Shown: positions 994-37,803 of the stretch, one piece after another
Layout of the letters: each line of letters starts with the position of its first letter
Numbering within the stretch: position 1 is the stretch's first letter
From: a virus
Reading direction: 5' to 3' (one strand)
Virus record (IMG/VR): IMGVR_UViG_3300046517_000805
Location: 1 to 38,080 of that record
DNA length: 38,080 nucleotides
Program-made: the position numbers and the translations under genes
The notes under the pieces: generated by a model
What the model saw: the letters and a program-made list of their open reading frames with translations, nothing else
What the model was told of the DNA's origin: nothing
Databases searched by the model: none

Positions 994-1485
994 ATGCCCG
1001 CCCCGGCCGTCCGATACCTACTAGGAACAGTGCTTCCCATGTGGTTGAGGGGACTACGGCCGGGAGCGGGAGCGGGGTACTATGAGAAGATGATCCTCAA
1101 TAGTGACCACGCGCTTGACTGGGCTGTCATCGGCTGGCTGACTGTGCCGAACACCCGAGTGCTGTGGACTACCAGTAGCCGCGTTACAGCCCGGATCGCC
1201 TGGGATCGCATCAGGTACATCTTGCTTGACGGAAGCGTCGTGCTCCTCCTTCCGGTAGATAGGTTCATCGCCCTGAACGGCGGTGAGGAGATCCGGTTCC
1301 AGAATGGAAGCCGGGTACTGTTCCGCACTCGCGGGTCGCAGGCCGGCCGGGGCATAACGGCGGACAAGCTGATACTGGATGAGGCGCTGGAGCTGACGGA
1401 TCTTCAGCTCGGAGCGCTACTGCCTGCCGCTTCTGCCAGCGGGGCGGAACTCGTGTACTCACAGACGGAGGTTCCAGGTGACTAG
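994..1485 (+). CDS. Terminase large subunit ATPase-domain fragment (stand-alone)
   Basis: 163 residues. Residues about 95-150 read like the middle of a phage large-terminase ATPase: IRFQNGSRVLFRTRG, then AGRG, then the Walker B strand LILDEA, then LGALLPAASA as in the full terminase at 12892 (its LVFDEA and LPTLSARANP). A TGA at 991-993 directly precedes the first ATG, so there is no room for a normal N-terminus; the Walker A position (PGAGAGYYE) lacks the catalytic Lys, and there is no nuclease domain. It ends in an 8-nt overlap with the next gene, which suggests translational coupling. It could be a decayed duplicate of terL or a repurposed domain. No good Shine-Dalgarno is seen, so the start is uncertain (ATG 1039 is an alternative). 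Confidence 0.55.
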   Translation: MPAPAVRYLLGTVLPMWLRGLRPGAGAGYYEKMILNSDHALDWAVIGWLTVPNTRVLWTTSSRVTARIAWDRIRYILLDGSVVLLLPVDRFIALNGGEEIRFQNGSRVLFRTRGSQAGRGITADKLILDEALELTDLQLGALLPAASASGAELVYSQTEVPGD

Positions 1486-15561: not shown

Positions 15562-17123
15562 AGAACGTACGCGCAGCACGCTCTGAAAAGCGCACCATGG
15601 CCGGGGTGCCCTGGCAGCCCTGGCTTGATCCCTACATGAAATGGGACATTGGCGGTCCCACGCACCCGTCCCGGTCCAAGTACGGCGTTGACGAGGCCCT
15701 TGGCCTTCCCGCCCTGTACGCCGGCTCCAAGATCCTGTCAGACAATGCGGCTTCCCTGCCCCTGCGCGTGTACAGCCAGGCCAAGAAGGCAGGCTCCCGC
15801 CTGGTGCCTTACACAGGCCCGCACTTGTTCGAAGAGCCCTCCGTACTCGGAACGCCCTTTGACTGGGTATTCACCTGCATGTCCAGCCTCATCCTTCAGG
15901 GAAACGCCTGGGGCCTTATCACCGGCCGCGACGGCTACGGGTTCCCAACGGGAATCGAGTGGATTCCGGCGGAGTACGTGTACGTGGAGGAAGATCCCGA
16001 CCAGCCGTTCAACCCTCTGCGCACTAAGGTATTCGCCTACGGGCGGCAGATGACCTGGCGCGGTCCCATGCGCGAGCTGTTCCACGTGAAGGCGTATGCG
16101 CTCGCAGGACGGCTTGACGGGGTTTCCCTGCTCAGGAGCCATGCCCTGGTCATCCTCGCCGGCCAGGAAGCCCAGCGGTACGGCACTGACTGGTACAAGG
16201 CCGGAGGCTTCCCGCCAGGCACGTTCCAGAACTCCGAGTCCTCAGTTAAGCCTGAGCAGGCGGAGATGATCCGCGCCCAGCTGGTCAAGACCCTGCGCCG
16301 TCGCGAGCCCCTGGTGTACGGCCGGGACTGGGACTACACCCCGGTAACCGTCCCGCCGTCAGAGGCGCAGTTCATCGACGCCATGCAGATGACGGCCACG
16401 CAGATAGCCGCGCTCCTGGACCTTCCGGCTGCCCGTCTCGGCGGTACCGCCGGCGGAAGCCTGACCTACAACACGACAGAGCAGAACCAGCTTCAGATCA
16501 TTGAGGCACTCCGCCCGTGGCTCAGCCGGCTGGAGCAGGCATTCTCGCGCCTTCTCCCGGAAAAGCGCGTGGTCAGGTTCAATACCGACGCACTGCTGAA
16601 GACGGACCTGAAGACCCGCACGGAGATTTACGTTCAGCAGCGCAATATCGGCCTGCGGTCCATTGACGAGCTACGGGAACTGGAAGACCTCGCCCCGCTG
16701 CCTGGCGGTGAGGGTAACGAGACAATGCCGCTCGGGCTCATGATCTCCATGGCCCAGCGCGCCGGGGCCTTCCCGAAGAACATGCTCGACCAGGTGGTGT
16801 TCATGTTCGACCTGGCTGGCGACAAGCTAGAGGAACTGGCTAAGGAAGGGCTTACCGCGCCTACCAAGGTCAACCAGACTGACCCGAATACAGGCGCGCG
16901 GACAGGCCCTGCTCATGATCCCGGTGACTTCTACGCCAACATGCTGAATGCGTACGCTCGCGCGATGGATAACCAGGGGCTTACTGAGCAGGCTGCGCTA
17001 CTCCGGGACTGGGTGACGAGGCATTTCACGGCACCTCAGGCGATAGCCCCGCGACCGGCAATCGGCGAGGCAATGGCCGATGAGGTTATCGGCCAGCGGC
17101 GAGATGACGAGGAACCCGGTTAA
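15549..17123 (+). CDS. Portal protein (HK97-type)
   Basis: 524 residues from GTG 15549 (GGGAG 10 nt upstream). YGVDEALGLPALYAGSKILSD, SLPLRVY, then GNAWGLITGRDGYG, HVKAYALAGRLDGVSLLRS, ETEYNTTEQ-like (LTYNTTEQNQLQI) and a long C-terminal helix-rich part match the HK97 gp3 portal family. Twelve copies form the ring at the head vertex through which DNA is packaged. Followed directly by the protease, as usual. Confidence 0.92.
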   Translation: MGFLENVRAARSEKRTMAGVPWQPWLDPYMKWDIGGPTHPSRSKYGVDEALGLPALYAGSKILSDNAASLPLRVYSQAKKAGSRLVPYTGPHLFEEPSVLGTPFDWVFTCMSSLILQGNAWGLITGRDGYGFPTGIEWIPAEYVYVEEDPDQPFNPLRTKVFAYGRQMTWRGPMRELFHVKAYALAGRLDGVSLLRSHALVILAGQEAQRYGTDWYKAGGFPPGTFQNSESSVKPEQAEMIRAQLVKTLRRREPLVYGRDWDYTPVTVPPSEAQFIDAMQMTATQIAALLDLPAARLGGTAGGSLTYNTTEQNQLQIIEALRPWLSRLEQAFSRLLPEKRVVRFNTDALLKTDLKTRTEIYVQQRNIGLRSIDELRELEDLAPLPGGEGNETMPLGLMISMAQRAGAFPKNMLDQVVFMFDLAGDKLEELAKEGLTAPTKVNQTDPNTGARTGPAHDPGDFYANMLNAYARAMDNQGLTEQAALLRDWVTRHFTAPQAIAPRPAIGEAMADEVIGQRRDDEEPG

Positions 17124-17217
17124 GCAGTCGTTGTTAACTGAACTTAGCGCTCGTACCCTTGTGAACAGAGAGTGGTCTCGTCACGCCCTCGTGACGGGGA
17201 GCCTTTTGGAGGGCACG

Positions 17218-18573
17218 GTGGAGTTCAGGAATTCTACGGGGCTTATTGAGCGGCGCATTAACCCCGCGTCAGCTGAGTTCCGCCCTGAGCTGCGAATGGC
17301 CGGCGACATCGCGCATATCGTAGGCTACGGTGCCGTGTTCGGGAAGCTGTCCCGTAAGCTGGGCGGATTCGTTGAGCGCGTTGACAACCGGGCTTTCGGC
17401 ACTTCCCAGGGCGCAGGCTGGCCAGGCGTCATCTGCCGGTACAACCACAGTGATGACTGGCTGCTCGGAACTATCCAGGGCGGCACGCTTGACCTGCGCG
17501 TTGACAATCAGGGGCTGTACTACGACGCCATCACTCCCGAGACCCGGGCCGGCCAGGACGTCATCCTCCTTTGCCGTCGCGGTGACATCGTCAGTTCCAG
17601 TTTCGCCTTCCGCGTACCAGACGGCGGGGACGACTGGGGCCTTACCCCGTACGGTTACCCGCTCCGCACGCTGCTTGAGGCTGACCTGGTAGACGTAGCG
17701 CCCGTCAACACGCCCGCCTACCCTGACGCAACCGCAGCAGCCCGGTCAATCGACGGCGCGGTGGAGTCCCTGGCTCGCTACGCGGACGCTGACCCCGCTG
17801 AAGTACGGAGCCTCCTGGACGAGAACCAGGCCATGAAGTTCTTCAAGCGGACAGGCCGGCCGACCGCTGCGCAGCCTGTCTCCCAGGATACGCCGGAAGC
17901 TCCGGAGAGCGAGGAAGTGCTGATGACTGCCGAAGAGCTGCGCGCTGCCTGGTATGAGGCTGAGGTACGCGCTAAGTACGACGAGGCCGCGCTCAAGAAG
18001 ATGTCCAAGACCGGCGGCACGATGCCCAACGCCAAGGGCGAGCCTTCGTATCCGATCGGAGACCAGGAAGACCTGCACAACGCCATTCACGCCATCGGGC
18101 GCGGTAAGGCGGATCACGACAAGATCAAGGCGCACATCAAGGACCGTGCCAAGGCGCTCGGCCTTACCTCCCAGCTTCCGCAGTCCTGGCACGCTGAGGA
18201 CAACTCCCTCGCAAGCACGGGCGTTCAGGCGGGTGACGTCACGGCTCCTGCTGACGACAAGGACGACAACGTAGAGCTGAACGCCGCTCCGCCTGCTGAC
18301 GAGAAGTTCGAGGAGTTCTGCATCCGGCTGGCGGGCATTCTCCAGGACGATGACAGCGAGGCTCGCGGCAAGCTGCCCCCGGCCCTTCAGGCTGCCATTG
18401 ACAAGAAGGCCGGCAAGAAGCCTGATTCCGAGGACGATGATTCCGAGGACGATGACGCTAAGGACAAGCCTGCAAAGGCGGACAAGCCTGCAAAGGCGGA
18501 CAAGCGCTCTGACGAGGACCAGGAGCGGTGGGAGCGGCTGATGAGGCTGCGCTTTGACCCGCTAGACGACTAA
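17218..18573 (+). CDS. Prohead protease (HK97 family S78) with lysine-rich extension
   Basis: 451 residues from GTG 17218, chosen for GGAGGG 4 nt upstream; the frame is open back to 17080 but that part uses atypical codons (TTA, AGA). GYGAVFGKLSRKLGGF (37-51), YNHSDDWLLG (75-84, catalytic His77), IVSSSFAFR (catalytic Ser near 127-129) and DVAPVNTPAYP match the S78 serine protease that trims capsid proteins. The second half is an added region: AEELRAAWYEAE, then the phage helical motif HNAIHAIGRGKAD...KAHIKDRAKALG, an acidic stretch, and two 18-nt tandem repeats giving DKPAKA twice (about 18470-18505). Confidence 0.9.
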   Translation: MEFRNSTGLIERRINPASAEFRPELRMAGDIAHIVGYGAVFGKLSRKLGGFVERVDNRAFGTSQGAGWPGVICRYNHSDDWLLGTIQGGTLDLRVDNQGLYYDAITPETRAGQDVILLCRRGDIVSSSFAFRVPDGGDDWGLTPYGYPLRTLLEADLVDVAPVNTPAYPDATAAARSIDGAVESLARYADADPAEVRSLLDENQAMKFFKRTGRPTAAQPVSQDTPEAPESEEVLMTAEELRAAWYEAEVRAKYDEAALKKMSKTGGTMPNAKGEPSYPIGDQEDLHNAIHAIGRGKADHDKIKAHIKDRAKALGLTSQLPQSWHAEDNSLASTGVQAGDVTAPADDKDDNVELNAAPPADEKFEEFCIRLAGILQDDDSEARGKLPPALQAAIDKKAGKKPDSEDDDSEDDDAKDKPAKADKPAKADKRSDEDQERWERLMRLRFDPLDD

Positions 18574-21978: not shown

Positions 21979-22908
21979 TTACTTGCCGGCGGACGGGATG
22001 ACGACGCCGCTGCTGGACCCCGGCCAGCAGGAGAAGCCCGGCTGGTTCTGGATCTGGCCGTCAGCTAGCCCGTTGAAGCACTGCTGAGCGAGCACGAGCG
22101 GGTTCTTGGAGATGCTCTTCTGGATGATGGCGTTGGCGTCGGCCTGCTGCTGAGCCGTCTTCACGGCTTCCTTGGCCTTGTCGGTCTGCGCCGTCTGGGC
22201 GAGCACGGAGTTGATCCGGTCGGTGACCGTCTGGTCGTACTGAAGCGGCTCAACGACGAGCGTGTCCACCGTGACGTACTGCCCGATCCGCGCGCTGAGC
22301 GCGTCCTGTACCCGCTGGGACAACTGGGCGGTGGACGGGTTGTCCGGCGAGCCGGCCTTGGCTCCGGTGGACAGCGGCAGGATCGGGTCGTAGCCGTCGT
22401 AGACGCTGTTCATGGCGACGTTCAGCGAGGGCTTGACCAGGGCGGTCTCAACCTGTGAGGTGTTGCCCTTGTACTGGCGGAACAGCGTGTCCACAGCCCC
22501 CTTCTGCACCTGCCAGCGGAACTTGACCTCCGCCTGAGCGGTCTGCTGGCCGGCCACCCTGACAGTCAGGGTGTAGTCGGTCGGCTGGACGCTCTCGTCC
22601 ATGAGCGCCATGTTCTCCCACGGGGCGATCCAGTGCGCACCGGGGCTGACGTAGCCGAGCACCTTGCCGAACGACGTGGTGACGCCGATGTCGTAGGTGC
22701 CGACAGAGTTGAACGAGCTGGCGAGTACGAGGCTGCCGCCGAGGATTCCGAGGATTGCCGCCACGATGAACGCCCCGACCGCGCCGCCCGTTGCGCCGTT
22801 ACTGTCGGGGGAATCGCTCTTGGCCACGACTGTGCAGACGCCGCCGATGAAGAGCGCGATGAAGAAGAACGCGCCCACTACGAGCGCGCAGATGAACAAA
22901 CCAGGCAT
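21979..22908 (-). CDS. SPFH/Band 7 membrane protein
   Basis: 309 residues from ATG 22908 (GGGAAGG upstream). Two hydrophobic helices (about 4-28 and 45-66), then the SPFH domain: GTYDIGVTTSFGKVLGYVSPGAHWIAPWE, VQPTDYTLTVRVAG, KFRWQVQKGAVDTLFRQYKG, followed by a coiled coil (TDKAKEAVKTAQQQADANAIIQKSIS). SPFH proteins assemble large rings in membranes and regulate proteases or local membrane structure. In a phage it may organise the infected-cell membrane or oppose host defence; that is inferred. Confidence 0.85.
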   Translation of the reverse strand: MPGLFICALVVGAFFFIALFIGGVCTVVAKSDSPDSNGATGGAVGAFIVAAILGILGGSLVLASSFNSVGTYDIGVTTSFGKVLGYVSPGAHWIAPWENMALMDESVQPTDYTLTVRVAGQQTAQAEVKFRWQVQKGAVDTLFRQYKGNTSQVETALVKPSLNVAMNSVYDGYDPILPLSTGAKAGSPDNPSTAQLSQRVQDALSARIGQYVTVDTLVVEPLQYDQTVTDRINSVLAQTAQTDKAKEAVKTAQQQADANAIIQKSISKNPLVLAQQCFNGLADGQIQNQPGFSCWPGSSSGVVIPSAGK

Positions 22909-25646: not shown

Positions 25647-26672
25647 GTGAAGATCTTCAGCACGCACGACGGCGCAGGATGCGGGTATTACCGGGTCGTG
25701 GTGCCCCTCACGGAGCTCAGCAAGCACGGGCACAGCGTAACCTTGCTGGACCAGAAGGAGCGCGTGCCCAGGGCTGATGACTACCTTGAGGGCGGCTGGG
25801 ACCTCGTGGTGGGCCAGCGGCTGTCCAACTACGACGGCATGATGCTGTGGCGCAAGACGCGGCTGCGGGGCAGCAAGATCGTCTACGAGCTGGACGACGA
25901 CATCTGGAACGTGACGCAGGAGAACTTCATGGCGTACACCGTTTACCAGGACGCCGCCCTGCGCGAGGCCGTCAAGGGCTACATGGAGATCTCGGACCTC
26001 GTCACCACGACGACGCCCTACCTTGCCGAGGTATTCAGCGAGTGGAACCCTGACGTGGAAGTGCTGCCGAACTGCATTCCCGGCTGGGTGCTGGACCTGC
26101 CCCGGATGAACGAGGGTGAGCCGCCAGGGGGCAGGCGGCCGAGGATCGGCTGGGTCGGCGGCGCGTCGCACGGCAGGGACATTCACGCAGCCTCGCCGGC
26201 CGTGCGCAGGTTCATGAAGCGGAACCCGGGCTGGGACCTGTACCTTGGCGGATCGGATTACCGGTCGGCGTTCAAGGTGCCGTTCAACCGGACGATCTAC
26301 GCGCCGTGGAAGCAGGTCAACCACGATCCTGCCGGCTTCTACTCCTCATACGATTTTGAGATCGGCATCTGCCCGCTGCTGGCCACGAGGTTCGCCCGGT
26401 CCAAGTCTGCGGTCAAGGCCCTGGAGATGACAGCCCGGGGAATCCCGGTGGTTGCCACTGACATTGAAGCGTACCAGGGATTCATAACTCACGGTGTTAA
26501 CGGGTTCCTCGCCAAGACTGACCATGAGTGGCTGCGGTACCTGAACGAGCTGGCTAACGACGGGAGCCTGAGGTACCGGATGGCTCAGGACGCCCGGAGG
26601 ATGGCGGGCGCGTACACCATTGAGAACCGGTGGGAAGACTGGGCACGCGCGTACGGTAAGCTGCTGGCATGA
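25647..26672 (+). CDS. Glycosyltransferase, GT4-type (GT-B)
   Basis: 341 residues. N-terminal Rossmann half starts MKIFSTHDGAGCGYYRVVVPL; KIVYELDDDIWN and VEVLPNCIPGW are shared with GT4 enzymes. The C-terminal half has RIGWVGGASHGRDI, then KSAVKALEMTARGIPVVAT, then GVNGFLA, the nucleotide-sugar binding region. Retaining transfer of a sugar in the cytoplasm. First gene of a nine-gene run with 4-nt overlaps; the start follows TAGACT by 6 nt with no Shine-Dalgarno. Confidence 0.9.
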   Translation: MKIFSTHDGAGCGYYRVVVPLTELSKHGHSVTLLDQKERVPRADDYLEGGWDLVVGQRLSNYDGMMLWRKTRLRGSKIVYELDDDIWNVTQENFMAYTVYQDAALREAVKGYMEISDLVTTTTPYLAEVFSEWNPDVEVLPNCIPGWVLDLPRMNEGEPPGGRRPRIGWVGGASHGRDIHAASPAVRRFMKRNPGWDLYLGGSDYRSAFKVPFNRTIYAPWKQVNHDPAGFYSSYDFEIGICPLLATRFARSKSAVKALEMTARGIPVVATDIEAYQGFITHGVNGFLAKTDHEWLRYLNELANDGSLRYRMAQDARRMAGAYTIENRWEDWARAYGKLLA

Positions 26673-27355
26673 CCAAGCCCCGGATTTCGGTGTTCCTGCT
26701 GTCGCACAACAAGGACGGCTACGTTCAGGAAGCCATTGACTCGGTTCTCAGCCAGGACTTTACGGACTTCGAGCTGTGGATTATCGAGAATTCCACTGAC
26801 AGGACTACCCGCAAGTCCCTGGACGCAGACGCTCGCGTGCGTGATCACCGGGTTATCTACCAGCGTGAGCGTGTTCCTGACGAGGTACGCCTGGGCAAGT
26901 ACGTGCCGGCCTGGCTGATCAACAAGTACTACCCTCGCGCAAATGGCGACATCATCCTCTACCTCAGTGACGACGACCTGTTCACGCAAGGGCTGTTCGC
27001 TAAGGTAGTGCGCGCGTTCGATGACAACCCGGGCTGGCAGGCGCTGTACTTCACGCTGACCCGGGTGAACGTCGCGTGCCCGGGATCTCCGGGAAGCCTC
27101 TGGATGACGATCCCGGCTATCGAGCCTCGCGGTGACGGCCAGGTTGACTGCCTGATAGACGGCGGCCAGGTGGCGCACAGGAAGAGCGTGCTGGACGCCA
27201 TCGGCGAGCCCTACTTCGAAGACTGCATGGACGGCGCTGAGCACTGCGACGGCAAGTTCCTTCAGAAGGTAGCCTCACAGTTCACGTTCCGTCCGCTGCG
27301 CTTCCACGGCGTAATTCACCGGCACACACCCTTCTCAGTCTGGAGCAAGTCGTGA
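26669..27355 (+). CDS. Glycosyltransferase family 2
   Basis: 228 residues. ISVFLLSHNKDGYVQEAIDSVLSQDFTDFELWIIEN is the GT2 opening; DIILYLSDDDLF gives the metal-binding DxD. ATG 26669 overlaps the previous stop by 4 nt. Cytoplasmic; sugar and acceptor unknown. Confidence 0.9.
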   Translation: MTKPRISVFLLSHNKDGYVQEAIDSVLSQDFTDFELWIIENSTDRTTRKSLDADARVRDHRVIYQRERVPDEVRLGKYVPAWLINKYYPRANGDIILYLSDDDLFTQGLFAKVVRAFDDNPGWQALYFTLTRVNVACPGSPGSLWMTIPAIEPRGDGQVDCLIDGGQVAHRKSVLDAIGEPYFEDCMDGAEHCDGKFLQKVASQFTFRPLRFHGVIHRHTPFSVWSKS

Positions 27356-27804
27356 TCAGGGCTGTGAACGTATCGCTGCGTAAAGTACGCCTTACAGACT
27401 TCTACTGCATAGCCGGCTGGCGTAACGCTAACGCTGAGTTCTTCCCTGAGCAGCGAAAGTTCACGGAGCTCAATCAGTACGCCTGGTTCACGGACGTGTA
27501 CGCGCACGATCCTGCCGACCATTACTACATGGTGCTGGAGACTACTGACGGTGATTATCCCGTAGGCACCATCGCATTCAATAGCAAGACTTACGAGATT
27601 GGCCGGGTGCTGCTTGGCGATAAGCAGTTTGAGAGAAGGGGCATTATGTCCGAGGCCCTGGCCCAGCTCATTGAGGCTTTCCCGGTCGGCCGGTACTGGC
27701 TGCGGGTCAAGGAGGGCAATGACGCTGCCGTCAGGTTCTACGAGAAGAACGGGTTCTACGGCGTTAAGACAGTAGACGGCATGCTTAGGATGGAGAGCGC
27801 GTGA
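27352..27804 (+). CDS. GNAT-type N-acetyltransferase
   Basis: 150 residues. RKVRLTDFYCIAGWRN, then YPVGTIAFNSKTYEIGRVLLG, QFERRGIMSEALAQLIE (acetyl-CoA loop R-x-x-G) and AAVRFYEKNGFYGV are the GNAT order. In this cassette it may acetylate an amino sugar made by the aminotransferase at 29858. Start GTG 27352, 4-nt overlap. Confidence 0.85.
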   Translation: MIRAVNVSLRKVRLTDFYCIAGWRNANAEFFPEQRKFTELNQYAWFTDVYAHDPADHYYMVLETTDGDYPVGTIAFNSKTYEIGRVLLGDKQFERRGIMSEALAQLIEAFPVGRYWLRVKEGNDAAVRFYEKNGFYGVKTVDGMLRMESA

Positions 27805-28643
27805 AAGTCCTGGTAACTGGCAGTAACGGGTTCATCGGCAAGGCCCTGAAGAAGGAACTGGCATTCCGGGGGCACGTTACTGCCGCTTACGATGTGTCCG
27901 CCGGATACGACGTAACTAATCGCGGGCAGCTGAACAACGTGATTCTCGGCTTCGGGGCAGACGCCATCATCAACCTGGCCGGGATGCTCGGCACGCCTGA
28001 GCTGTTCGGTAACGAGTACCGGGCAGCGCAGGTTAACATCCTCGGGGCCTTGAACGTGTACGACCTCGCCGCCAGGTTCCGCATTCCCGTCGTGCAGATC
28101 GGCACAGGGCACAAGGGCCAGCCTAACCCGTACGCCATCACCAAGGGCTGTGCTGAAGACCTCGGCCTCGCCCGTGCGCAGTGGAGCGCTGAGAAGATCT
28201 CGGTAGTGCGCGCGTACCACGTGTACGGGCCGGGGCAGGCGGTAGGCCCTCCGCACGGCACCGCGAGCGTTCACAAGTTCTTCCCGACCTTCGCCGTGCG
28301 GGCGCTGACTGACATGCCCCTGGAACTGTGCGGCGGCGGTGACCAGATTATCGACCCGATCTACGTGGACGACGTCGCCAAGATCCTGGTGGACGCCATC
28401 GCAGGCCCGTACGGGGAGGTTACCGAGGCAGGGAACGGATGGCCTGTCAGCGTGGAAGAGGTGGCGGCGGACATCCTGTTCCGGGTACCGGAATCCCGGT
28501 CGCATACTACCGGAGTGGCCGCACGAGACGGTGAGCCGGCTAACGCTGAAGTGGTGGGAAGCGTAATGCGCGCTAACCAGTGGCCGTACAAGGTGCAGGA
28601 GACCGTGGAATGGTACAGGCAGTGGCTCCTCTCGTCACGGTAG
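27801..28643 (+). CDS. NAD-dependent sugar epimerase/dehydratase (extended SDR)
   Basis: 280 residues. GSNGFIG (7-13) binds NAD; YAITK (111-115) holds the catalytic Tyr/Lys; VRAYHVYGPGQ and PIYVDDVAKILVDAI are typical of nucleotide-sugar epimerases. It changes a nucleotide sugar for the cassette. GTG 27801 overlaps the previous stop by 4 nt. Confidence 0.88.
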   Translation: MKVLVTGSNGFIGKALKKELAFRGHVTAAYDVSAGYDVTNRGQLNNVILGFGADAIINLAGMLGTPELFGNEYRAAQVNILGALNVYDLAARFRIPVVQIGTGHKGQPNPYAITKGCAEDLGLARAQWSAEKISVVRAYHVYGPGQAVGPPHGTASVHKFFPTFAVRALTDMPLELCGGGDQIIDPIYVDDVAKILVDAIAGPYGEVTEAGNGWPVSVEEVAADILFRVPESRSHTTGVAARDGEPANAEVVGSVMRANQWPYKVQETVEWYRQWLLSSR

Positions 28644-29269
28644 TCACGCCCACATGGGACCGGGACGCGTTCCTGCTCAGGGCGATCATGTCCGTAGCGC
28701 TCCAGGCGTACCGGCCGATTGAGCACGTGGTAGTGTCTGACGGGCCTAACCCTGCCCTGGAAGAGCTCCTGTACCCTATCACGGGAAGGCACGATGACGG
28801 GTACGAGCTGACTGTCGCCTTCCTGCCAGAGCACCGGCCGGCCCGCTGGGGTCACTTCGCGCGACTGCACGGCACGGAGATAGCCAAGGGCACGCACATC
28901 GCGTACCTGGATGATGATGACGAGCTCACGTCCAGTCACGTGGAACTGCTGATGTCACGGCTGGAGTCAGTTCCGCAAGCGCAGTTCGCCTACTCGTGCA
29001 TCCTGATTCACGAGCCGGGCGGTGACCTTGCGTCAGGAGCCGAGCCGCCTAGCCACGGCCAGGTGTCAACGTCGTCTATACTCCACCGCAAGGAGCTGCT
29101 GTCAGTGGCGACGTGGCGGGACGAGGGACAGGAAACGGTGGACTGGGACCTGGTAGAGCGCTGGATGGCAGCGGGCGTGCCGTGGGCGTTCCTGCCGGTC
29201 ATAACATCTGTCGCTCACCGGGACGCGCCGAACGTCAGCAGTAACCGACCGCGTAACCTGAGGAGTTAA
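28610..29269 (+). CDS. Glycosyltransferase family 2
   Basis: 219 residues from ATG 28610 (GGAG upstream), overlapping the epimerase end. VTVVTPTWDRDAFLLRAI, IEHVVVSDG and HIAYLDDDDEL define GT2. Third glycosyltransferase of the cassette and distinct from the one at 26669. Confidence 0.88.
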   Translation: MVQAVAPLVTVVTPTWDRDAFLLRAIMSVALQAYRPIEHVVVSDGPNPALEELLYPITGRHDDGYELTVAFLPEHRPARWGHFARLHGTEIAKGTHIAYLDDDDELTSSHVELLMSRLESVPQAQFAYSCILIHEPGGDLASGAEPPSHGQVSTSSILHRKELLSVATWRDEGQETVDWDLVERWMAAGVPWAFLPVITSVAHRDAPNVSSNRPRNLRS

Positions 29270-29270
29270 A

Positions 29271-29861
29271 GTGCACCTGCCATGGCGAGACATGCTTCCT
29301 CCCGGGGCTAAGCCCGGCCAGCCGGCTATCAGCACGTCCCTCACGGAAAACGAGGCGCTAGAGCTAGCACGCCTGGCCACAGGCAAGATCGTGCTGGAAA
29401 TCGGCTCAGCTTACGGGTTCTCGGCAGTGACCATGTCCCTGGGAGGCGCGCTGGGAGTTACTGCCGTAGACCCGCATGACTGGTGCGTGCCGCCTACCCT
29501 GAGCAAGATGAAAGAGAACCTGGCAGCGTACGGGATTCCCGAGTTTACCTTCGGTGTTCCTCAGGCGGCAGGCGTTGTCGCAATCCTGGAGCGCACGTTC
29601 TTTGACGTAGCCGCTGAAATACCTGAGAGTGGCATCGTGGATTTCGTGTTCATCGACGGCGATCACAGCTTCGGTACCGTGCATCACGACTTCCGGTCAG
29701 CACTCAGGCTTTTGGCTCCCGGCGGCGTCATCGCCTGCCACGACTACCTTGAGGACTCGTGCCCAGGCGTACGGCAGGCACTTGACGAGCTCATCCCGGA
29801 AGGGCCGTCGCGAATAGTGGACACCCTGGCCATTTACGAGAACCTGAAGGAGGCAGCGTGA
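29271..29861 (+). CDS. SAM-dependent methyltransferase (Methyltransf_24 type)
   Basis: 196 residues from GTG 29271 (GAGG 8 nt upstream). KIVLEIGSAYGFSAVTM is motif I; FVFIDGDHSFGTVHHDF and LLAPGGVIACHDYLE are the D-G-D-H and D-Y motifs of sugar and small-molecule O-methyltransferases. Probably methylates the sugar product. Confidence 0.85.
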   Translation: MHLPWRDMLPPGAKPGQPAISTSLTENEALELARLATGKIVLEIGSAYGFSAVTMSLGGALGVTAVDPHDWCVPPTLSKMKENLAAYGIPEFTFGVPQAAGVVAILERTFFDVAAEIPESGIVDFVFIDGDHSFGTVHHDFRSALRLLAPGGVIACHDYLEDSCPGVRQALDELIPEGPSRIVDTLAIYENLKEAA

Positions 29862-31003
29862 TCCCGCTTTTCCGTCCCGCTTGCAGTGACGAGGAAATAG
29901 CTGCGGTAACGCGCGTCATGCGCTCAGGCTGGTGGGCGCAGGGAGCGGAGACCGCCGCGTTCGAGGACGAGTTCGCCCGGTACGTCGGCCAGCCTTTCAT
30001 GTTCGCCGGCATGCAGGCGGCAGCCGTTAACAGCGGCACGATGGCCCTGGAGCTCGCAGCCCGCGCCCTTATGCCCAACGGCGGCGTCGCCGTCGTGCCG
30101 GCGCTCACGTTCGTGTCAACTGCCCTCGCGATGAAGCACGCGGGACTGCGAGTTATCTTCGCTGACATTGACGACCAGACCCTGTGCATTGACTGGGACG
30201 ACGTGCGCCGGAAGATAGGCGATAACATCGGCTGGACTTTCGGCAAGGGATACGAGAACGACATACTGACAGTACCCGTGTGGTACAGCGGAACGGTGAC
30301 CCGGGTACCTTCTGATTTCCCGTACCAGGTTAAGGTACTGGAAGACTGCGCGCACGCTGCCGGCTCGATAGGCGCGGGAACCACGGGCAACGCCGCAGCG
30401 TGGTCATTCCAGGCCGTCAAGAACCTCGCCTGTGGTGACGGGGGAATGGTTACCTCAAGGGACAGCGCCGTGATCGAGAAGGTGAAGAGCCTTCGCTGGT
30501 GCGGGATCGACAAGTCCACGTTCGACCGGGATAACACGCGGGGTTACTCCTGGGACTACAGCATTACCGATGACGGCGAGAAGGGGCACACGAATGACAT
30601 CGCCGCTGCCATCGGACGGGTTCAGCTCAGGCACCTGGAAGAGCGCAACGACCTGCGGGCTAGCATCGTAGACACCTACAACTACGCCTTCGAAGCCGTG
30701 GACTGGATCAGGCGGCCCCACATCTCAGTTACGTCAAGCTGCCACCTGTACGCTGTACGGGTACCTGCTCACGACCGTGACCGGCTGATCGATCATCTTC
30801 GCGCTAACGGCGTGTCGGCCGGCGTGCACTACAAGCCGCTGTACAAGTACGGGCAGGTCTTCGGCATTCACCCGGTACTTCCCAAGACGGAACTGGCCTG
30901 GCGTCAGCTAGTGACGCTGCCCTGCTTCCCTGACCTCAGCGAGGACGACTTGCAGCATGTGATAACGTCTGTACTGTCGTTCGAGCCGGGGAGGACTTCG
31001 TGA
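29858..31003 (+). CDS. DegT/DnrJ/EryC1/StrS aminotransferase
   Basis: 381 residues. PLP-dependent sugar aminotransferase: SGTMALELA (59-67), EDCAHAAGS (162-170, D163 contacts PLP) and WSFQAVKNL with Schiff-base Lys188, then GDGGMV. It converts a keto nucleotide sugar, such as the product of the 4,6-dehydratase next to it, to an amino sugar. GTG 29858, 4-nt overlap. Confidence 0.93.
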   Translation: MIPLFRPACSDEEIAAVTRVMRSGWWAQGAETAAFEDEFARYVGQPFMFAGMQAAAVNSGTMALELAARALMPNGGVAVVPALTFVSTALAMKHAGLRVIFADIDDQTLCIDWDDVRRKIGDNIGWTFGKGYENDILTVPVWYSGTVTRVPSDFPYQVKVLEDCAHAAGSIGAGTTGNAAAWSFQAVKNLACGDGGMVTSRDSAVIEKVKSLRWCGIDKSTFDRDNTRGYSWDYSITDDGEKGHTNDIAAAIGRVQLRHLEERNDLRASIVDTYNYAFEAVDWIRRPHISVTSSCHLYAVRVPAHDRDRLIDHLRANGVSAGVHYKPLYKYGQVFGIHPVLPKTELAWRQLVTLPCFPDLSEDDLQHVITSVLSFEPGRTS

Positions 31004-32061
31004 CGAGGGTGCTGATTACCGGGGCCGGCGGCTTTGCCGGGAGCCATTACCTGGAGCACGTACTGAAGACCACGGACTGGAACGTGGTCGCGACGGACTC
31101 GTTCCGGCACAGGGGCAAGACGGACAGGATCAGCGAGGTACTGACGAGCTCCCCGTTCCATACTTACTCCACTCGTCAGTACCTGCCTTTCGGGTCTGAC
31201 TGGGGGGCGCGCACTGAGATCCTGACCCATGACCTGACCGTGCCGTTCAGCAACCAGGCTATCGAGCGCATAGGCGAGATCGACTACATGGCCTGCTACG
31301 CCTCTGAGAGCCACGTGGACAGGTCTATCTCCGATCCTGTCTCCTTCTCCCGGAACAACGTGGACGTCGCCCTCACGACGCTGGAGCTGGCGCGCACGCT
31401 GAAGCCCAAGGCACTCGTATGGGTCAGCACGGACGAGGTCTACGGTCCTGTGGGCAGGTACGACTACATGGGAAAGGCGGAATGGTCTGCCATCTTGCCG
31501 TCTAACCCGTACAGCGCGAGCAAGGCGGCACAGGAAGCCTTCGTGATCTCGTACTGGCGAACGTTCGGGGTTCCCGCTGTCATAGTAAACGCCATGAACA
31601 TGATAGGCGAGCGCCAGGATACGGAGAAGGTAGTGCCGATGGTAATCGGCAAGGTAATGCGCGGTGAGGAAGTTACCATTCACGGAATGCCGGGTAATAT
31701 CGGCACGCGTCATTACCTGCATGCCCGTAACCTGGCGGACGGCATTAACTTCATTCTTGACGAGCTTCCGCCCAGGAAATTCGGAGAGTTCGTTCACCGG
31801 CCTGACCGGTACAACATCGCCTCGCCTGAGCGCACAGACAACCTGACGCTCGCAAATATGATAGCGGAGGACGTCGGCAAGCCGCTCCGGTACCGGCTGG
31901 AAGACTTCCACACTACCCGGCCAGGGCATGACCCACATTACGGGCTGGATTCTTCTAAGCTTCGCAGACTAGGCTGGAATATGCCCGTGCCATTCCGGGA
32001 GTCACTGCGCAAGACCGTGGAATGGACGCTCCGCAACCCTGAATGGCTAATCCCCGACTAG
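31000..32061 (+). CDS. NDP-sugar 4,6-dehydratase-like (RmlB-type) protein
   Basis: 353 residues. GAGGFAG (8-14), ASESHVDRSISDP (101-113), STDEVYG (143-149) with the RmlB catalytic D-E pair, and Y171xxxK175. Expected to make NDP-4-keto-6-deoxy-hexose, the feedstock for the aminotransferase. Its GTG start is part of one copy of the octamer GTGACGAG (31000-31007). Confidence 0.9.
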   Translation: MTRVLITGAGGFAGSHYLEHVLKTTDWNVVATDSFRHRGKTDRISEVLTSSPFHTYSTRQYLPFGSDWGARTEILTHDLTVPFSNQAIERIGEIDYMACYASESHVDRSISDPVSFSRNNVDVALTTLELARTLKPKALVWVSTDEVYGPVGRYDYMGKAEWSAILPSNPYSASKAAQEAFVISYWRTFGVPAVIVNAMNMIGERQDTEKVVPMVIGKVMRGEEVTIHGMPGNIGTRHYLHARNLADGINFILDELPPRKFGEFVHRPDRYNIASPERTDNLTLANMIAEDVGKPLRYRLEDFHTTRPGHDPHYGLDSSKLRRLGWNMPVPFRESLRKTVEWTLRNPEWLIPD

Positions 32062-32068
32062 GAGAGTA

Positions 32069-32626
32069 ATGATCCCCGACGACAGCCCTTTCAAGTTCGG
32101 CAAGCTAGACGCTCTTCAGGACGCCCTTAACTGGGTGCAGAAGACAGAGTACGACTGGCTGCTTACCGGCGACCAGAAGGACGTCTACACCCCGTGGATG
32201 CCATTCCAGCCAGCCGACTTCATCGCTATCATCAGCGAGTGCGTCGCGCAGGTAGACGGTCCCCTGTTCCTGGACGTGGGCAGTGGCCCGGGTACCAAGA
32301 TGAGGCTAGCGCAGATGCTCTTCGGGCTTACCGTGCACGGTATTGAGCGCAACCCGCAAATGGCGCACGCTGCCGTTTCAGAGTGCATAGGCGACTGCTT
32401 CATTGGTGACGCCCTGGAATTCAGTCATTACGGTGATTACGACCTGATCTGGCTGTACCGGCCAATCAAGACTCCCGAGTTCCAGCGCGTGCTTGAGCAG
32501 AAGATATACGCGGAAGCTCGTAGGGGGGCTATCGTGGCCGGCGGTGCCCTTGAGCATTATCCGGAAGGCTGGATCACGGTACTAGATGACTGGGACCTCA
32601 GGCGAGGAGCGTGGAAGAAGCCATGA
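32069..32626 (+). CDS. SAM-dependent methyltransferase-like protein
   Basis: 185 residues from ATG 32069 (GGAG upstream). LFLDVGSGPGTKMRLAQMLF is motif I and GIERNPQMAHAA the acidic motif II; DLIWLYRPIKTP follows. The N-terminal 60 residues are helical (LDALQDALNWVQK). Last gene of the cassette; substrate unknown. Confidence 0.8.
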   Translation: MIPDDSPFKFGKLDALQDALNWVQKTEYDWLLTGDQKDVYTPWMPFQPADFIAIISECVAQVDGPLFLDVGSGPGTKMRLAQMLFGLTVHGIERNPQMAHAAVSECIGDCFIGDALEFSHYGDYDLIWLYRPIKTPEFQRVLEQKIYAEARRGAIVAGGALEHYPEGWITVLDDWDLRRGAWKKP

Positions 32627-32832
32627 CCGCAGACGACGCGGCTAAGGCCGTAACCCGGGCGCTTATGAGCTTCGGGTTCGATGACTACGGCCTGGACGAT
32701 GTAGAACAGTCAAAGGACGAGGAATGGCTGCCCGACCTGGTGATAGACATAGTGTTCGAGCTGGAGCAGGCGGGATTGCTAAACGGCGGATCTCCTTCCG
32801 TGAGTGGTTCCTCCGGATTGCCGACGACATAG
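32623..32832 (+). CDS. Hypothetical protein
   Basis: 69 residues from ATG 32623, 4-nt overlap. Acidic helical part (DDAAKAVTRALMSFGFDDY, WLPDLVIDIVFELEQAG), then a Ser/Gly tail. The 3' half overlaps the dCMP deaminase in another frame. Confidence 0.55.
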   Translation: MTADDAAKAVTRALMSFGFDDYGLDDVEQSKDEEWLPDLVIDIVFELEQAGLLNGGSPSVSGSSGLPTT

Positions 32833-33335
32833 CCCTGCGAGGAGACTGCACACGGCGTCAGGTGGGCGCGCTTCTCGTGGACCCCGTCACTAACGACATC
32901 ATCCAGACGGGTTACAATGGCGCTCCGAGTGGTCAGCCAGGCTGTCTTTCAGACAGCGCTTGCCCGCGAGGACGCCATTACAAGGTATTTGAAAACTACG
33001 GAATGTACGAGGAGACAGGTTATTACTGCGCTTGCGCTAAGCCCTGGCCTTGTCCCGACGCCGTAGCTCCTTCGTCCTCCTATGACACAGGTCCGGGCTC
33101 GTGCATAGCGATCCACGCCGAGGCTAACTGCCTTCTCAGGGCGGGAACCCGGTCACGGGGAGCCTGGATGTACGTATCGTGCGAGCCGTGCGACGGGTGC
33201 CGTAAGCTGATGGCAGGCGCAGGGGTTACTCAGGCGCACTGGTATGGCGGAAGCCTGGATTTCGTCACTAAGGGGGAAGGCAGTGCGCTACGTCAGCTTC
33301 TACAGCGGCTGCGGCGGCCTGGACCTGGGCACTGA
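32775..33335 (+). CDS. dCMP deaminase
   Basis: Zinc-dependent deaminase turning dCMP into dUMP. RISFREWFLRIADDIALRG and RRQVGALLV open the fold, HAE (SCIAIHAEANCLLRA) and CEPCDGC provide the zinc site and proton shuttle, with an extra Cys-rich insert (CLSDSAC, YCACAKPWPC). The family usually starts just before KRRISF, which fits a rare ATT start at 32775 preceded by GGAGCAGGCGGG; the first ATG in frame is 32724 (203 residues) and would overlap the previous gene by 109 nt. It overlaps the methyltransferase by 53 nt. Confidence 0.85.
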   Translation: MAKRRISFREWFLRIADDIALRGDCTRRQVGALLVDPVTNDIIQTGYNGAPSGQPGCLSDSACPRGRHYKVFENYGMYEETGYYCACAKPWPCPDAVAPSSSYDTGPGSCIAIHAEANCLLRAGTRSRGAWMYVSCEPCDGCRKLMAGAGVTQAHWYGGSLDFVTKGEGSALRQLLQRLRRPGPGH

Positions 33336-34332
33336 GCTCGCTGGCTTCGACCCTGTCCTGAAGGTTGAGCTGGATAACTGGTCAGTGGAGACGCTCAGGG
33401 CAGTTCGCCGGAAGGCGGGGGGCGGTCCTCCGGTCTTGCAAGAGGACATGGACATCCTCGTCACCACGGGCAGCCTGAAGGACTTTCGCGACTCGAACAT
33501 AGACCTGGTGGTCGGCGGCCCGCCCTGCCAGGGGTTCAGCGTCGCCGGCCGGATGGACCCCGAAGACCTGCGGTCCCGGCAGGTATTCACGTTCCTGGAC
33601 GCCGTGCGCCAGGTAAGGCCGCGCGCCTTCATCATGGAGAACGTCGCCGCGCTGACGGGGAAGCGCTGGTCCCTAGTGCTCGACAGGCTCCGGGCACGCG
33701 CAGAGCGCTCGGGCTACAACGTGAGCGTGCACGTGCTGGACGCTGCCGAGTTCGGCGTTCCCCAGCGCCGGAGCCGGATGTTCATGACAGGGCTGCTTGA
33801 CGGGGAACTGCCCGCGATACCGCCCGGAGCCTTCATGACGGGCGACGGCATTTCAGCCGGGCGGGCGCTGCGCGCTGTTAAGTGGCCTGTAGAGGATGAC
33901 CTCGTCACCCCGGCTAAGATCATCCCGTGCAAGAGCCCTGTCCTTCGCAAGAGCCCTTACGCAGGCATGCTGTTCAATGGCGGGGGACGAGTCATAAACC
34001 TTAACGAGCCTGCCCAGACTCTTCCCGCGACAATGGGCGGTAACCGTACTCCGATCATAGACCTGGGCCAGCTGAAGCGCGGGGCGGTGCCGTGGATAGA
34101 GGGCTATCACAAGCGGCTGTACGTTTTGCACGGAGAGCCGCTGAAGAACCTGCCGGGACATTCGCTAATGCGGCGCATTTCCGTCAGGGAGGCTCTGGTA
34201 CTCCAGGGATTCGACGTGAACTACCCGGTTCAGGGACCAGCTTGCGCACGCTACCGGCAGGTAGGCAACGCTGTTCCGCCGGCTCTTTCCGAGGCTGTGT
34301 CAAGGGCAGTGCGCAGGGAACTTGAGCGCTAG
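33283..34332 (+). CDS. DNA (cytosine-5) methyltransferase
   Basis: 349 residues from GTG 33283 (GGGGGAAGG upstream). All key motifs: I FYSGCGGLDLG (6-16), IV GPPCQGFS with catalytic C82, VI MENV (118-121), VIII QRRSR (161-165), X RYRQVGNAVPP near the end; the target region lies between. No restriction endonuclease is adjacent, so it is an orphan enzyme that could shield phage DNA from host restriction. Target site not readable from sequence. Confidence 0.95.
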   Translation: MRYVSFYSGCGGLDLGTELAGFDPVLKVELDNWSVETLRAVRRKAGGGPPVLQEDMDILVTTGSLKDFRDSNIDLVVGGPPCQGFSVAGRMDPEDLRSRQVFTFLDAVRQVRPRAFIMENVAALTGKRWSLVLDRLRARAERSGYNVSVHVLDAAEFGVPQRRSRMFMTGLLDGELPAIPPGAFMTGDGISAGRALRAVKWPVEDDLVTPAKIIPCKSPVLRKSPYAGMLFNGGGRVINLNEPAQTLPATMGGNRTPIIDLGQLKRGAVPWIEGYHKRLYVLHGEPLKNLPGHSLMRRISVREALVLQGFDVNYPVQGPACARYRQVGNAVPPALSEAVSRAVRRELER

Positions 34333-34367: not shown

Positions 34368-34577
34368 ATGGTAGTAGGGCCGGAACGTGAGCACGCAGTA
34401 CTAGACCCTAGCGAGGTGCTCTCCTGGGACGAGATACTGGAAGCTAACACTTACAAGGAACTTCGCATCATGGTGTCCGATGCGCTTGCGTACATTCACC
34501 GTCCTCAGAATGGTTACGTCCTTGACGGGTTCCAGCGGCACATGCGGAGGGCGTGGCGAGTTACGGCGGGGGCGTGA
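34368..34577 (+). CDS. Hypothetical protein
   Basis: 69 residues from ATG 34368 (GGAAGGAGA upstream). VLDPSEVLSWDEILEANTYKELRIMVSDALAYI, then a basic end (FQRHMRRAWRV). No family recognised. Its last 17 nt overlap the HNH gene on the other strand. Confidence 0.6.
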   Translation: MVVGPEREHAVLDPSEVLSWDEILEANTYKELRIMVSDALAYIHRPQNGYVLDGFQRHMRRAWRVTAGA

Positions 34578-34872
34578 ACGACTTCCGGTGCGTCCATATC
34601 CTGTGGCAATTAGCGCAGAGAACCCGGCATTTGGCTATTTCTGCCCATACACGCTCCAGCGAGGCGTTCCTTAGCAGGTAAGATACCTTGTCAATTTTCC
34701 CTTTCGGGTCTATGTGGTCGAAGTCCAGGGCTACCGGGTCTTCCGCGTAACCGCAGTTCTCGCATCCTTTAGCCGTCTTGTAAGCGTTTACTGCCAGGTA
34801 CCGGGCTGTGCTCATGCCGCGCTTGCGCTGCGCACGAGGCTTCACGTTAGGCCGGCAACCATGGTCTGGCAC
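34561..34872 (-). CDS. HNH endonuclease (antisense)
   Basis: 103 residues from GTG 34872. CENCGYAEDP, ALDFDHIDPKGK and KCRVLCANCHRIWT form a zinc-bound HNH nuclease (first His in DFDH, two CxxC pairs). It is the only minus-strand gene between 25647 and the window end, tucked between two plus genes, which fits a selfish free-standing homing endonuclease or a packaging-associated HNH. TACGAT ends 8 nt before the start. In-frame ATG at 34815 is an alternative. Confidence 0.85.
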   Translation of the reverse strand: MPDHGCRPNVKPRAQRKRGMSTARYLAVNAYKTAKGCENCGYAEDPVALDFDHIDPKGKIDKVSYLLRNASLERVWAEIAKCRVLCANCHRIWTHRKSFTPPP

Positions 34873-34908: not shown

Positions 34909-35907
34909 GTGTCTAACACGCCTGTGTACTTTGACCTGCCGAGCACGGTTGTCACGGTCCCTGGTACCTTCACTAACGCCAACGGCGTGACAGTAGACCC
35001 GGCGGCAGTGTCCATTGTCGTGACGAGCCCGGCGGGCACAGCCACCACGTACAGCTACGCCGCGCTGAACACAGGGCCGAATCAGGTTGTCAAGGACTCC
35101 ACGGGAAAGTACCACATCGACCTTACGCCCTTCAATCCCGGGCCTGCTGAGGCAGGCTTGTGGAACTGGAACTTCATCGGCGCTGGCGGGTCGGTGCAGA
35201 ATGGCTGCCAGATCTTCCCCGGTTCATTCCGGGTGTTCCCGCTTAACTCCGGCGCTGCCGTTAACTTCGCGTACTGCTCTGTCGGTGAGGTCAAGTCGGC
35301 TCTTGCCGTGTCCCCTGACGACACTAAGGACGATTTCGAAATCCAGCGAGCGGTACTGTCCGCGACGAGCATGCTCACCAATGAGTGCGGTCAGCACTTC
35401 TACCGGGTTACCGAGGCTCGCACGTTCACGTACGACTCCATTACCGCCTTGTTCACTGACCCGTTCGTGCCCGGCTCCATTACCTCATTCAAGCTCGACT
35501 ATGACGGTGACGGGGTATACGAGGTGACCTGGGCGGAGAACGTCAATTACCAGGCAATGCGCTTCGCCGATCACTACAACGCCGGGTACCTGGGCGAGAA
35601 GCGACCGCACAACTACGTCCAGGCCCTGCTCAACTCCAGCGTCGGCGGCGGTCAGTTCCTGCCGTTCATCTGGCCGTGGACCCAGCGCAACCGGGTGCAG
35701 ATCACGGCAACCTGGGGCTGGCAGTCCGTCCCGCAGAACATCGCTAATGCCGCGCTCATCCTGGCCGTGGACTTGTTCAAGGCGAAGGACACGCCCTGGG
35801 GCGTCGCCGGGTTTGGCGAGCTTGGCCTCGTGCGCGTACAGTCGAACCCGCAGATCATGGACCTCATCACTGACTACCAGAACCCGCGCAACGTGGTGGG
35901 CATCTAA
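34909..35907 (+). CDS. Head-tail connector (gp6-like) with N-terminal Ig-like domain
   Basis: 332 residues from GTG 34909 with AGGAGGTGA 4 nt upstream. Residues 1-105 are a beta-sandwich-like domain (STVVTVPGTFTNANG, VSIVVTSPAGT, HIDLTPFNPGPAEAGLWNWNF) of the kind found in phage surface or adaptor proteins. Residues about 115-332 match the head-tail connector family: YCSVGEVKSALAV, IQRAVLSATSMLTNECG, then WGWQSVPQNIANAALILAVDLFKAKD. It would cap the portal. Confidence 0.8.
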   Translation: MSNTPVYFDLPSTVVTVPGTFTNANGVTVDPAAVSIVVTSPAGTATTYSYAALNTGPNQVVKDSTGKYHIDLTPFNPGPAEAGLWNWNFIGAGGSVQNGCQIFPGSFRVFPLNSGAAVNFAYCSVGEVKSALAVSPDDTKDDFEIQRAVLSATSMLTNECGQHFYRVTEARTFTYDSITALFTDPFVPGSITSFKLDYDGDGVYEVTWAENVNYQAMRFADHYNAGYLGEKRPHNYVQALLNSSVGGGQFLPFIWPWTQRNRVQITATWGWQSVPQNIANAALILAVDLFKAKDTPWGVAGFGELGLVRVQSNPQIMDLITDYQNPRNVVGI

Positions 35908-35923: not shown

Positions 35924-36121
35924 GTGCGACTGACGTTCGGCATAGGCAGCCGCTTGTGGGTATGGGAGACCGCGCTGACTAAGGCGATGATCAAGCGCCC
36001 TGACGGTGACGAGGTAACCGTATCGGAAGAGCTTGAGCACGTGAGGCTGTCCTCGGACGCCGCCGGCCTGGGAGGCTTCGCAGGATTCGGGTTCAGGTCT
36101 GATGGCAGCGAAGGCGAATAA
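35924..36121 (+). CDS. Small hypothetical protein
   Basis: 65 residues from GTG 35924. RLTFGIGSRLWVWETALTKAM, then an acidic and Gly-rich part (SSDAAGLGGFAGFGF). Overlaps the next gene by 20 nt. No family recognised; position suggests a neck component. Confidence 0.55.
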   Translation: MRLTFGIGSRLWVWETALTKAMIKRPDGDEVTVSEELEHVRLSSDAAGLGGFAGFGFRSDGSEGE

Positions 36122-37340
36122 AACCTCTGCGGTTAAGAAGGCCCCGGCTTCCAAGGCGAAGGCCAAGGGCGCTAAGGCCGCCGTGAAGAAGAGGTCAGGG
36201 CCGCGCCTTACGCCCGCGCAGTGGAAGGCGTACCGGGCGGCAGCCCAGAAGGTCACGCGCCAGCAGCAGTCCGAGGCGCTGCGCTTGCGCAGGCTGAAGT
36301 CCGCTGCCCGCGTCACGCAGAAGCAGGCCGCCGCCCTCTACCAGCGCAGGCGGGCTAAGGTAGCCCAGCAGGCCGTGCGGCGCACGTTCGCTCAGGTGGC
36401 GGGCGGTCACCAGGTAGCCGCTAACCGGGCGAGGGCAGCCCGTAACGTCTTCCGCGCTACCCAGCTGGCCACCCAGGCGCAGTTCATTCACCAGGGAATC
36501 TCGATCCACGCGCACCAGGTGCGCATGCAGACCATCACCCGCAGGCAGGCTGCCAGCGCGCAGGCACGCTTCGCCGTGGCCGCTCGCCGGCGAGCGCAGG
36601 CTAACCTGAAGCCCAAGAGCGCGAAGAAGATCCTGAAGAAGGCAGCGGCATCCCCCAGGCAGGCGGTTAAGAAGCCCGTGGCCCGGGGGTACAGCGCGCA
36701 GGCTAAGTCGGCCGGGCTCCGGGCGGCAGCAGCCCTGGGACCGGTTAACAGCCCCCGCAGGGCCGTGAAGAGGCCGAAGGCCAAGAGGGCAACCCGTCAG
36801 GTGCAAACCAGGAAGACGCAGGCTTCAGTGGCTAGGAACAAGGCAAAGTCAGCAGTGTCAGCAGCGCAGTCCTCCAAGGCCAAGGCCCATACGTCAAGCA
36901 CGGGTCACGCGGCACCGAAGAAGGCGGCAGCCCCGTCCCTCGTCACGGCGAGCATAGTAACCGGCTGGGTTACAGCAGGCAACGACGAGGGACGCCCGAA
37001 CTGCGTTGCCGTGGCGCTGGCCAACCACCTGCTCGCCTGGCACGACTACCGGCTCAGTTACGAGGCTATCGAATCGCTTAACTGGCTGGGTCACGAATGG
37101 GGCCTTACCATCCCCGAGGCGCTAGAGCACAGTAAGCACGGCGCTACCTGGCCGTGGAGGGTGAATGAGTACTGCCGTATTGACAAGGCCGTGCCCGGGT
37201 CTCTCGTCAGGCTGGACACGGTGACAGGGTCGCACGCCGCAGTCCTGATGCCCGGTAACCGGATGGTAAGCTGGGGCAAGCTCGTGCCGGTGCCGGATAC
37301 CGTAGACGAGTACTGGTACGCCTCCTGGAAAAAGGACTGA
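36102..37340 (+). CDS. Histone-H1-like basic domain fused to papain/NlpC-like cysteine-peptidase domain
   Basis: 412 residues. Residues 1-275 are Lys/Ala/Arg-rich repeats (KKAPASKAKAKGAKAAVKK, RRAVKRPKAKRATR) like bacterial histone H1-type and nucleoid proteins. Residues about 285-412 look like a compact cysteine-peptidase fold: PNCVAVALANHLL with candidate nucleophile C301, GSLVRLDTVTGSHAAVLM with candidate His378, and a closing VSWGKLVP strand. A DNA-binding tail joined to a peptidase-like domain between connector and tail genes suggests a virion or ejected protein. Peptidase activity is inferred, not shown. Confidence 0.7.
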   Translation: MAAKANKTSAVKKAPASKAKAKGAKAAVKKRSGPRLTPAQWKAYRAAAQKVTRQQQSEALRLRRLKSAARVTQKQAAALYQRRRAKVAQQAVRRTFAQVAGGHQVAANRARAARNVFRATQLATQAQFIHQGISIHAHQVRMQTITRRQAASAQARFAVAARRRAQANLKPKSAKKILKKAAASPRQAVKKPVARGYSAQAKSAGLRAAAALGPVNSPRRAVKRPKAKRATRQVQTRKTQASVARNKAKSAVSAAQSSKAKAHTSSTGHAAPKKAAAPSLVTASIVTGWVTAGNDEGRPNCVAVALANHLLAWHDYRLSYEAIESLNWLGHEWGLTIPEALEHSKHGATWPWRVNEYCRIDKAVPGSLVRLDTVTGSHAAVLMPGNRMVSWGKLVPVPDTVDEYWYASWKKD

Positions 37341-37341
37341 G

Positions 37342-37803
37342 ATGTCAACGCTGAAGCAGGTACGACAGGCCCTGACCGACATCATCAGCGTCAGGTGCGG
37401 TATCGACACGCGCCCGTACATGCCGGATACCGTCACCCCGCCCATGGTCTCGTTCGTCCCTGGAAGCCCGCCTGTATCTTTCGGCGGCACGCTTAACGAG
37501 GCGGCGGAGATCATAGGCGATCCTAACGCTCCCTCGTCTCCCACGGGCTACAGGCTTCAGGCGCTGGTCATCGTCAGCCGGGCGATCACTGAGGACGCGC
37601 AGATGCTCGTGGAAGAGCTCGTTGACTCAGGGTCGGAGCGCGCCGGCGTACTGCTGTCCATTCCTGACGCCATCATGTCCGATGACACCCTGGGCCACGT
37701 GGTGGAGTGGTGCGTGCCGACTGAGGTAAGCCAGATCGGGCAGCTACAGATCGCCGGCCAGGATTACTTCCACGCGCGAATCCTGCTGTCGATTAGCGCG
37801 TGA
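37342..37803 (+). CDS. Tail terminator/completion-type protein
   Basis: 153 residues from ATG 37342, one base after the previous stop. Beta/alpha plan starting STLKQVRQALTDIIS, then PPMVSFVPGSPPVSF, GYRLQALVIVSRA, and ending DYFHARILLSISA, like tail-terminator proteins in the same genomic slot. Family match is moderate. Confidence 0.6.
   Translation: MSTLKQVRQALTDIISVRCGIDTRPYMPDTVTPPMVSFVPGSPPVSFGGTLNEAAEIIGDPNAPSSPTGYRLQALVIVSRAITEDAQMLVEELVDSGSERAGVLLSIPDAIMSDDTLGHVVEWCVPTEVSQIGQLQIAGQDYFHARILLSISA

Follow-up and report, generated by a model that had tools for sequence, protein, structure and literature searches.

A phage protein family with a basic N-terminal arm and a predicted papain-fold domain, encoded at the head-tail joint

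The gene at 36102-37340 of the window (the whole stretch of DNA analysed, 38,080 nucleotides of an IMG/VR virus contig) encodes a protein with a strongly basic N-terminal arm and a C-terminal domain for which a papain fold is predicted. The gene, this architecture, the predicted fold, the conservation of a Cys, a His and a Ser/Thr residue, and the constant position behind a head-tail adaptor gene were all obtained by computation, which is the basis of all evidence on the protein. Such proteins constitute a new family that seems to be missing from Pfam, NCBIfam, PHROGs and the collection of sequenced phages; about 30 distinct phage contigs, the longest of 164 kb, carry it in their structural module. 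The source of these phages is presumably soil, as read from the contig names. The protein is interpreted, tentatively and as a possibility that falls a little short of probable, as a DNA-tethered peptidase that would be packaged, ejected with the genome and cut a protein that this DNA encounters on entry. The features referred to below are as follows.

17080-18573, plus strand: separate head maturation protease gene (PHROG match, phrog_80)
34909-35907, plus strand: head-tail adaptor gene (PHROG match, phrog_442)
35924-36121, plus strand: small gene of 65 aa with a GTG start, whose last 20 bases are also the first 20 of the long gene; its relatives are acidic
36102-37340, plus strand: long gene (CDS, 412 aa), basic arm and C-terminal predicted papain-fold domain (ORF translation; family in 34 loci)
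36102-36956, plus strand: basic N-terminal arm, residues 1-285, with 68 K+R and 1 D+E
36210-36242, plus strand: motif T37..Q40...Y44.AA (residues 37-47), where the predicted helix begins (aligned members)
36213-36518, plus strand: residues 38-139, modeled as a single long basic helix (pLDDT about 80-87 at residues 41-90 and lower beyond)
36957-37337, plus strand: predicted papain-fold domain, residues 286-412, 127 residues (AlphaFold model and structural matches)
37002-37004, plus strand: C301, the predicted nucleophile, which opens the core helix and is invariant (model and alignment)
37233-37235, plus strand: H378, located on a strand and predicted to be the catalytic base (model)
37269-37277, plus strand: S390-W391-G392, with S390 (Ser/Thr) the candidate third residue, 12 residues after H378 (alignment)
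37342-37803, plus strand: tail terminator gene (PHROG match, phrog_17840)

The open reading frame was confirmed on the plus strand as given in the preliminary description; it starts with ATG, translates to 412 aa and carries C301 and H378 at the positions named there. Third-position GC is 0.82 and 0.78 in its two halves and is likewise high in the capsid and portal genes. Near-identical copies differ mostly at synonymous positions, and divergent relatives keep the architecture, the position and key residues. On these three grounds it is regarded as a real gene.

An initial scan returned near-copies together with a single relative of 39% identity, and profile scans yielded seven divergent members. 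A scan with the neighboring head-tail adaptor gave 40 loci, in 33 of which, as well as in the window, the domain was found with a domain HMM; E-values for the related loci are relative to the candidate stretches only. The same architecture is present at these 33 further loci (34 with the window), with the domain always C-terminal. Some of the loci lie on identical or nearly identical contigs; an alignment was made of 30 distinct sequences, of which 28 entered the stored alignment, and identity among the aligned domains goes down to about 20%. The largest family contig has 163,509 bases, and none of the members comes from a cultured phage. Among the adaptor loci without the domain, four (L051, L062, L064 and L066) reach the contig end near the slot, L060 has other genes there, and L072 and L074 have distant adaptors; in L072 a terminator-like ORF lies next to the adaptor, and in L074 the slot is poorly defined.

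Searches of Pfam and NCBIfam with 28 members gave no convincing match, and the first family members had none in PHROGs. A DUF6950 match in two members (E 0.0048) is treated as a lead only, and the other weak Pfam and NCBIfam matches look like chance. Sequenced-phage records, searched with seven family queries, gave nothing beyond chance level, in agreement with the earlier remark that an arm joined to a peptidase-like domain is not a familiar phage configuration. Two candidates were discarded: a match in Gordonia phage Lilbeanie is antisense to gene 19, and an Erwinia match, also antisense, covers 36%. PDB sequence matches to BLIP-II and RCC1 were rejected as well, as they arise from one short H...SWG-like stretch. 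No family member was found in bacterial and archaeal genomes with a strict peptide pattern, a requirement by which distant members could be missed.

The arm is net-basic in 34 of 34 members, each with the same C-terminal domain, and its length, with start codons guessed, ranges between about 30 and about 290 residues. The weakest arms are those of L073 (10 K+R and 3 D+E in 76 aa) and L061 (6 and 1 in 30 aa, from a guessed start). Residues 1-285 of the window protein contain 26% Ala. Of the "K/A/R repeats" first described, the K/A/R-rich composition stands; tandem units are not visible, and a long helix is predicted at residues 38-139. In the full-length AlphaFold model residues 1-32 are disordered, the helix is confident to about residue 90, and residues 186-285 are mostly of low confidence. 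The T..Q...Y.AA pattern was seen, with small variations, in all eight members first aligned and in most of the wider family. Neither a coiled coil nor an amphipathic face was detected in the helix, where periodicity did not exceed that of shuffled sequences; basic residues therefore lie all round it, an arrangement that would suit nucleic acid. The comparison of the arm with histone H1 was not sustained, as no H1 domain or homology was found and a large part of the arm is predicted to be helical; membership in the linker histones was rejected, with no Pfam histone family matched up to E 1. Judged by composition, the arm is probably DNA-binding, but its charge could also serve for contacts with RNA, with the cell wall or with further proteins of the virion.

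The domain was modeled with AlphaFold from eight sequences (pLDDT 86.5, pTM 0.84). The peptidase-like character ascribed to it earlier is borne out by the predicted papain fold and by conservation of the Cys and His across the family. In the model the Cys opens a helix and the His lies on one of six strands; the pair is thus placed as in papain folds, judged by secondary structure of the model, and at that level the refuting case named earlier, a fold whose Cys and His are not in contact, did not arise. Comparison with the folds proposed at the outset gave C39 and papain C1 matches with the structural aligner and weak NlpC/P60 matches with Foldseek. The best structural-aligner matches are C39 peptidases (8vp5, PCAT1, Z 12.0 over 118 residues at 2.5 A; 3k8u, ComA, Z 11.7); these and the papain-family C1 peptidase 2as8 (Z 11.2 over 124 residues) cover nearly the whole domain. 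In a profile comparison with eight C39 domains, Cys was aligned to Cys with a score that was not significant.

Across the 30 aligned domains the Cys is invariant (30/30), the His is present in 29 and shifted by one residue in the other, and S/T-W-G is found in all 30, with Thr once; one Glu and two Trp near the domain end are almost invariant. The spacing of 12 residues from His to Ser/Thr is kept in most members and equals that from H432 to E444 of RipA, two residues given in PDB entry titles, which makes S390 a candidate third residue. If S-W-G is aligned to the NSWG of papain instead, a hydrophobic residue would fill the third position, leaving a Cys-His dyad, the minimal papain-like site, used by papain-like enzymes (PMC10318531); Ser/Thr as the partner residue occurs in DUF1839 (PMC10318531). 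Neither the usual Asn/Asp partner nor the Gln oxyanion residue occurs as such in this domain family. Within the limits of prediction, the papain fold and the conserved active site are well supported, and the domain would act as a peptidase.

The protein would be a late product of the structural module of large soil phages. The basic arm would hold it on phage DNA, and the papain-fold domain would cut a protein adjoining that DNA, with C301 as nucleophile, H378 as base and S390 probably orienting H378. It would enter the head along with the genome and leave with it at ejection, and its target would be a protein encountered by the incoming DNA. Peptidase activity, DNA binding, packaging, ejection and target are inferred. 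Against this reading stand the weak Foldseek E-values, the C39 profile comparison that fell short of significance, the departure from the usual partner and oxyanion residues, the other uses to which a basic charge could be put, and the weak arms of a few short members. That the protein is ejected and acts on a host-side protein is possible and somewhat more doubtful. In its broadest form the proposal is on the unlikely side: every virion in a clade of large soil phages would contain a papain-fold protease tethered to the DNA, which would arrive with the genome and cut, at the incoming DNA, a host protein of the nucleoid, of defense or associated with RNA polymerase.

The gene order is head-tail adaptor, small acidic gene, papain-domain gene and tail terminator, which upholds the location in a head-tail cluster given in the preliminary description. 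The distance from the adaptor to the papain-domain ORF is -70 to 2,099 bases in every locus compared, and the terminator follows where tested, with the exception of L021, where the adjoining ORF has no terminator match. Domain and adaptor similarity are correlated (Spearman 0.52, 0 of 2000 permutations); domain divergence tracks adaptor divergence, as expected for a long-resident gene. Three phages in the sequenced set have a related adaptor followed directly by a terminator or tail completion gene, so the small gene and the papain-domain gene have the appearance of an insertion at the joint. The small gene, which has a DPHxT motif in most relatives, was detected at 19 of the 34 loci; its product could be a partner, an inhibitor or a joint protein.

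Several other genes were noted by eye or by profile. A minus-strand ORF at 34561-34872 has a CxxC...DHID...CxxCH pattern and appears HNH-endonuclease-like. Between the capsid genes and the adaptor, the plus-strand region 25647-34332 holds glycosyltransferases, epimerases, a DegT aminotransferase, methyltransferases, GNAT, dCMP deaminase and C5 DNA methylase genes, perhaps for sugar synthesis or for virion or DNA modification. A Peptidase_A4 match (1478-2074, plus strand; PF01828, E 1.8e-12), of the glutamic peptidase family, is unexpected in a phage, and a Band_7/SPFH protein (PF01145, E 2.7e-15) is encoded at 21979-22908 on the minus strand. In L021, the plus-strand ORF at 757-1314 resembles a permuted LRAT/YiiX papain-like protein by eye and has a weak PF00877 match.

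The constant slot between adaptor and terminator genes would also suit a DNA-tethered peptidase that works in the virion, during assembly or once mature, and trims itself or proteins of the head, the neck or the packaged contents, and the DNA-sliding adenovirus proteinase offers a precedent (PMC4740752). This is nevertheless unlikely. The separate head maturation protease gene makes a role in capsid maturation less likely, and the joint itself can do without the papain-domain gene, as in the three sequenced phages with related adaptors. The profile for head maturation proteases gave no match to the papain-domain protein.

The weak Foldseek matches (best E 0.025 in PDB) include MepS, RipA and RipD. 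NlpC/P60-type hydrolases thus rank among the best of that search, and the structural aligner also found the pseudomurein endoisopeptidase PeiR (Z 10.8); NlpC/P60 proteins are not among its best 50 matches, which carries no weight either way. With the RipA-like spacing, these likenesses would fit a peptidoglycan endopeptidase carried by the virion, with an arm that binds anionic polymers of the cell wall or keeps the enzyme in the particle. We consider this quite unlikely. Genuine NlpC/P60 matches lie elsewhere in six of nine large relatives, which makes cell-wall cutting by the papain-domain protein less likely, and two of these lie in very long frames (2,060 and 2,823 aa), which are probably tape-measure-like. 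Moreover, the gene is at the head-tail joint, away from the tail-tip genes, and the window has no PF00877 match (one of 28 members has one, at E 0.23). Searches run beside that for NlpC/P60 gave no amidase_2 or M23 match.

A papain-fold module without catalytic function, serving as a structural or DNA-compacting neck protein, would be consistent with a third residue that is Ser/Thr rather than Asn/Asp/His and has a parallel in RipD (4jxb), a known non-catalytic NlpC/P60 protein, but is improbable given an invariant Cys and a His kept in 30 sequences down to about 20% identity. About equally improbable is a late cytoplasmic enzyme, never packaged, that during infection attaches to DNA or RNA of the host or phage and cleaves a host protein at that site: no secretion signal is seen by eye and packaging is itself conjectural, yet the gene always lies among the structural genes and is inherited together with the adaptor.

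Should the DNA-tethered protein be packaged and active, a papain-type protease would be added to the enzymes that phages may bring in with their DNA. Precedents for this exist as proposed logic. The adenovirus proteinase slides along DNA inside nascent particles (PMC4740752); the likeness is that of a viral cysteine protease working along packaged DNA, whereas adenovirus is a eukaryotic virus and its DNA sled is a separate 11-residue peptide. Peptidase domains have been proposed in phage proteins injected with DNA (PMC5512222), and the polyvalent proteins of phages and plasmids share the proposed logic of a DNA-injected enzyme (PMC5512222); their listed peptidase superfamilies are zincin-like MPTase, assemblin-like, DD and LonC, with papain-like not among them (PMC5512222). 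With NlpC/P60 peptidases most phage members share the spacing of 12 from His to third residue, which is normally His/Asn/Gln/Glu in the former and a candidate Ser/Thr in the latter, and the NlpC/P60 copies in the same phage group have a different genomic place from the papain-domain gene. The C39 peptidase domains of ComA and PCAT1 are similar over 113-118 residues (Z 11-12), with a Cys that opens the first core helix. However, PF03412 has no profile match in the window or among the 28 members, and the ORF ends after the domain, without an ABC transporter fusion. The C39 alignment has invariant Q, C, H and D, whereas the phage family has N/D before the Cys and V/I/A-S-W-G where C39 has Asp after the His strand. 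Papain-family C1 peptidases (Der p 1, ervatamin, cathepsins) have more than 200 residues, compared with about 130 in the phage domain, the position of their catalytic Asn is hydrophobic in the phage domain if S-W-G is aligned, and PF00112 has no profile match in the window protein or the 28 members. They are nevertheless similar over 124-126 residues (Z about 11), and the S-W-G that follows the His hairpin of the phage domain resembles the NSWG of papain.
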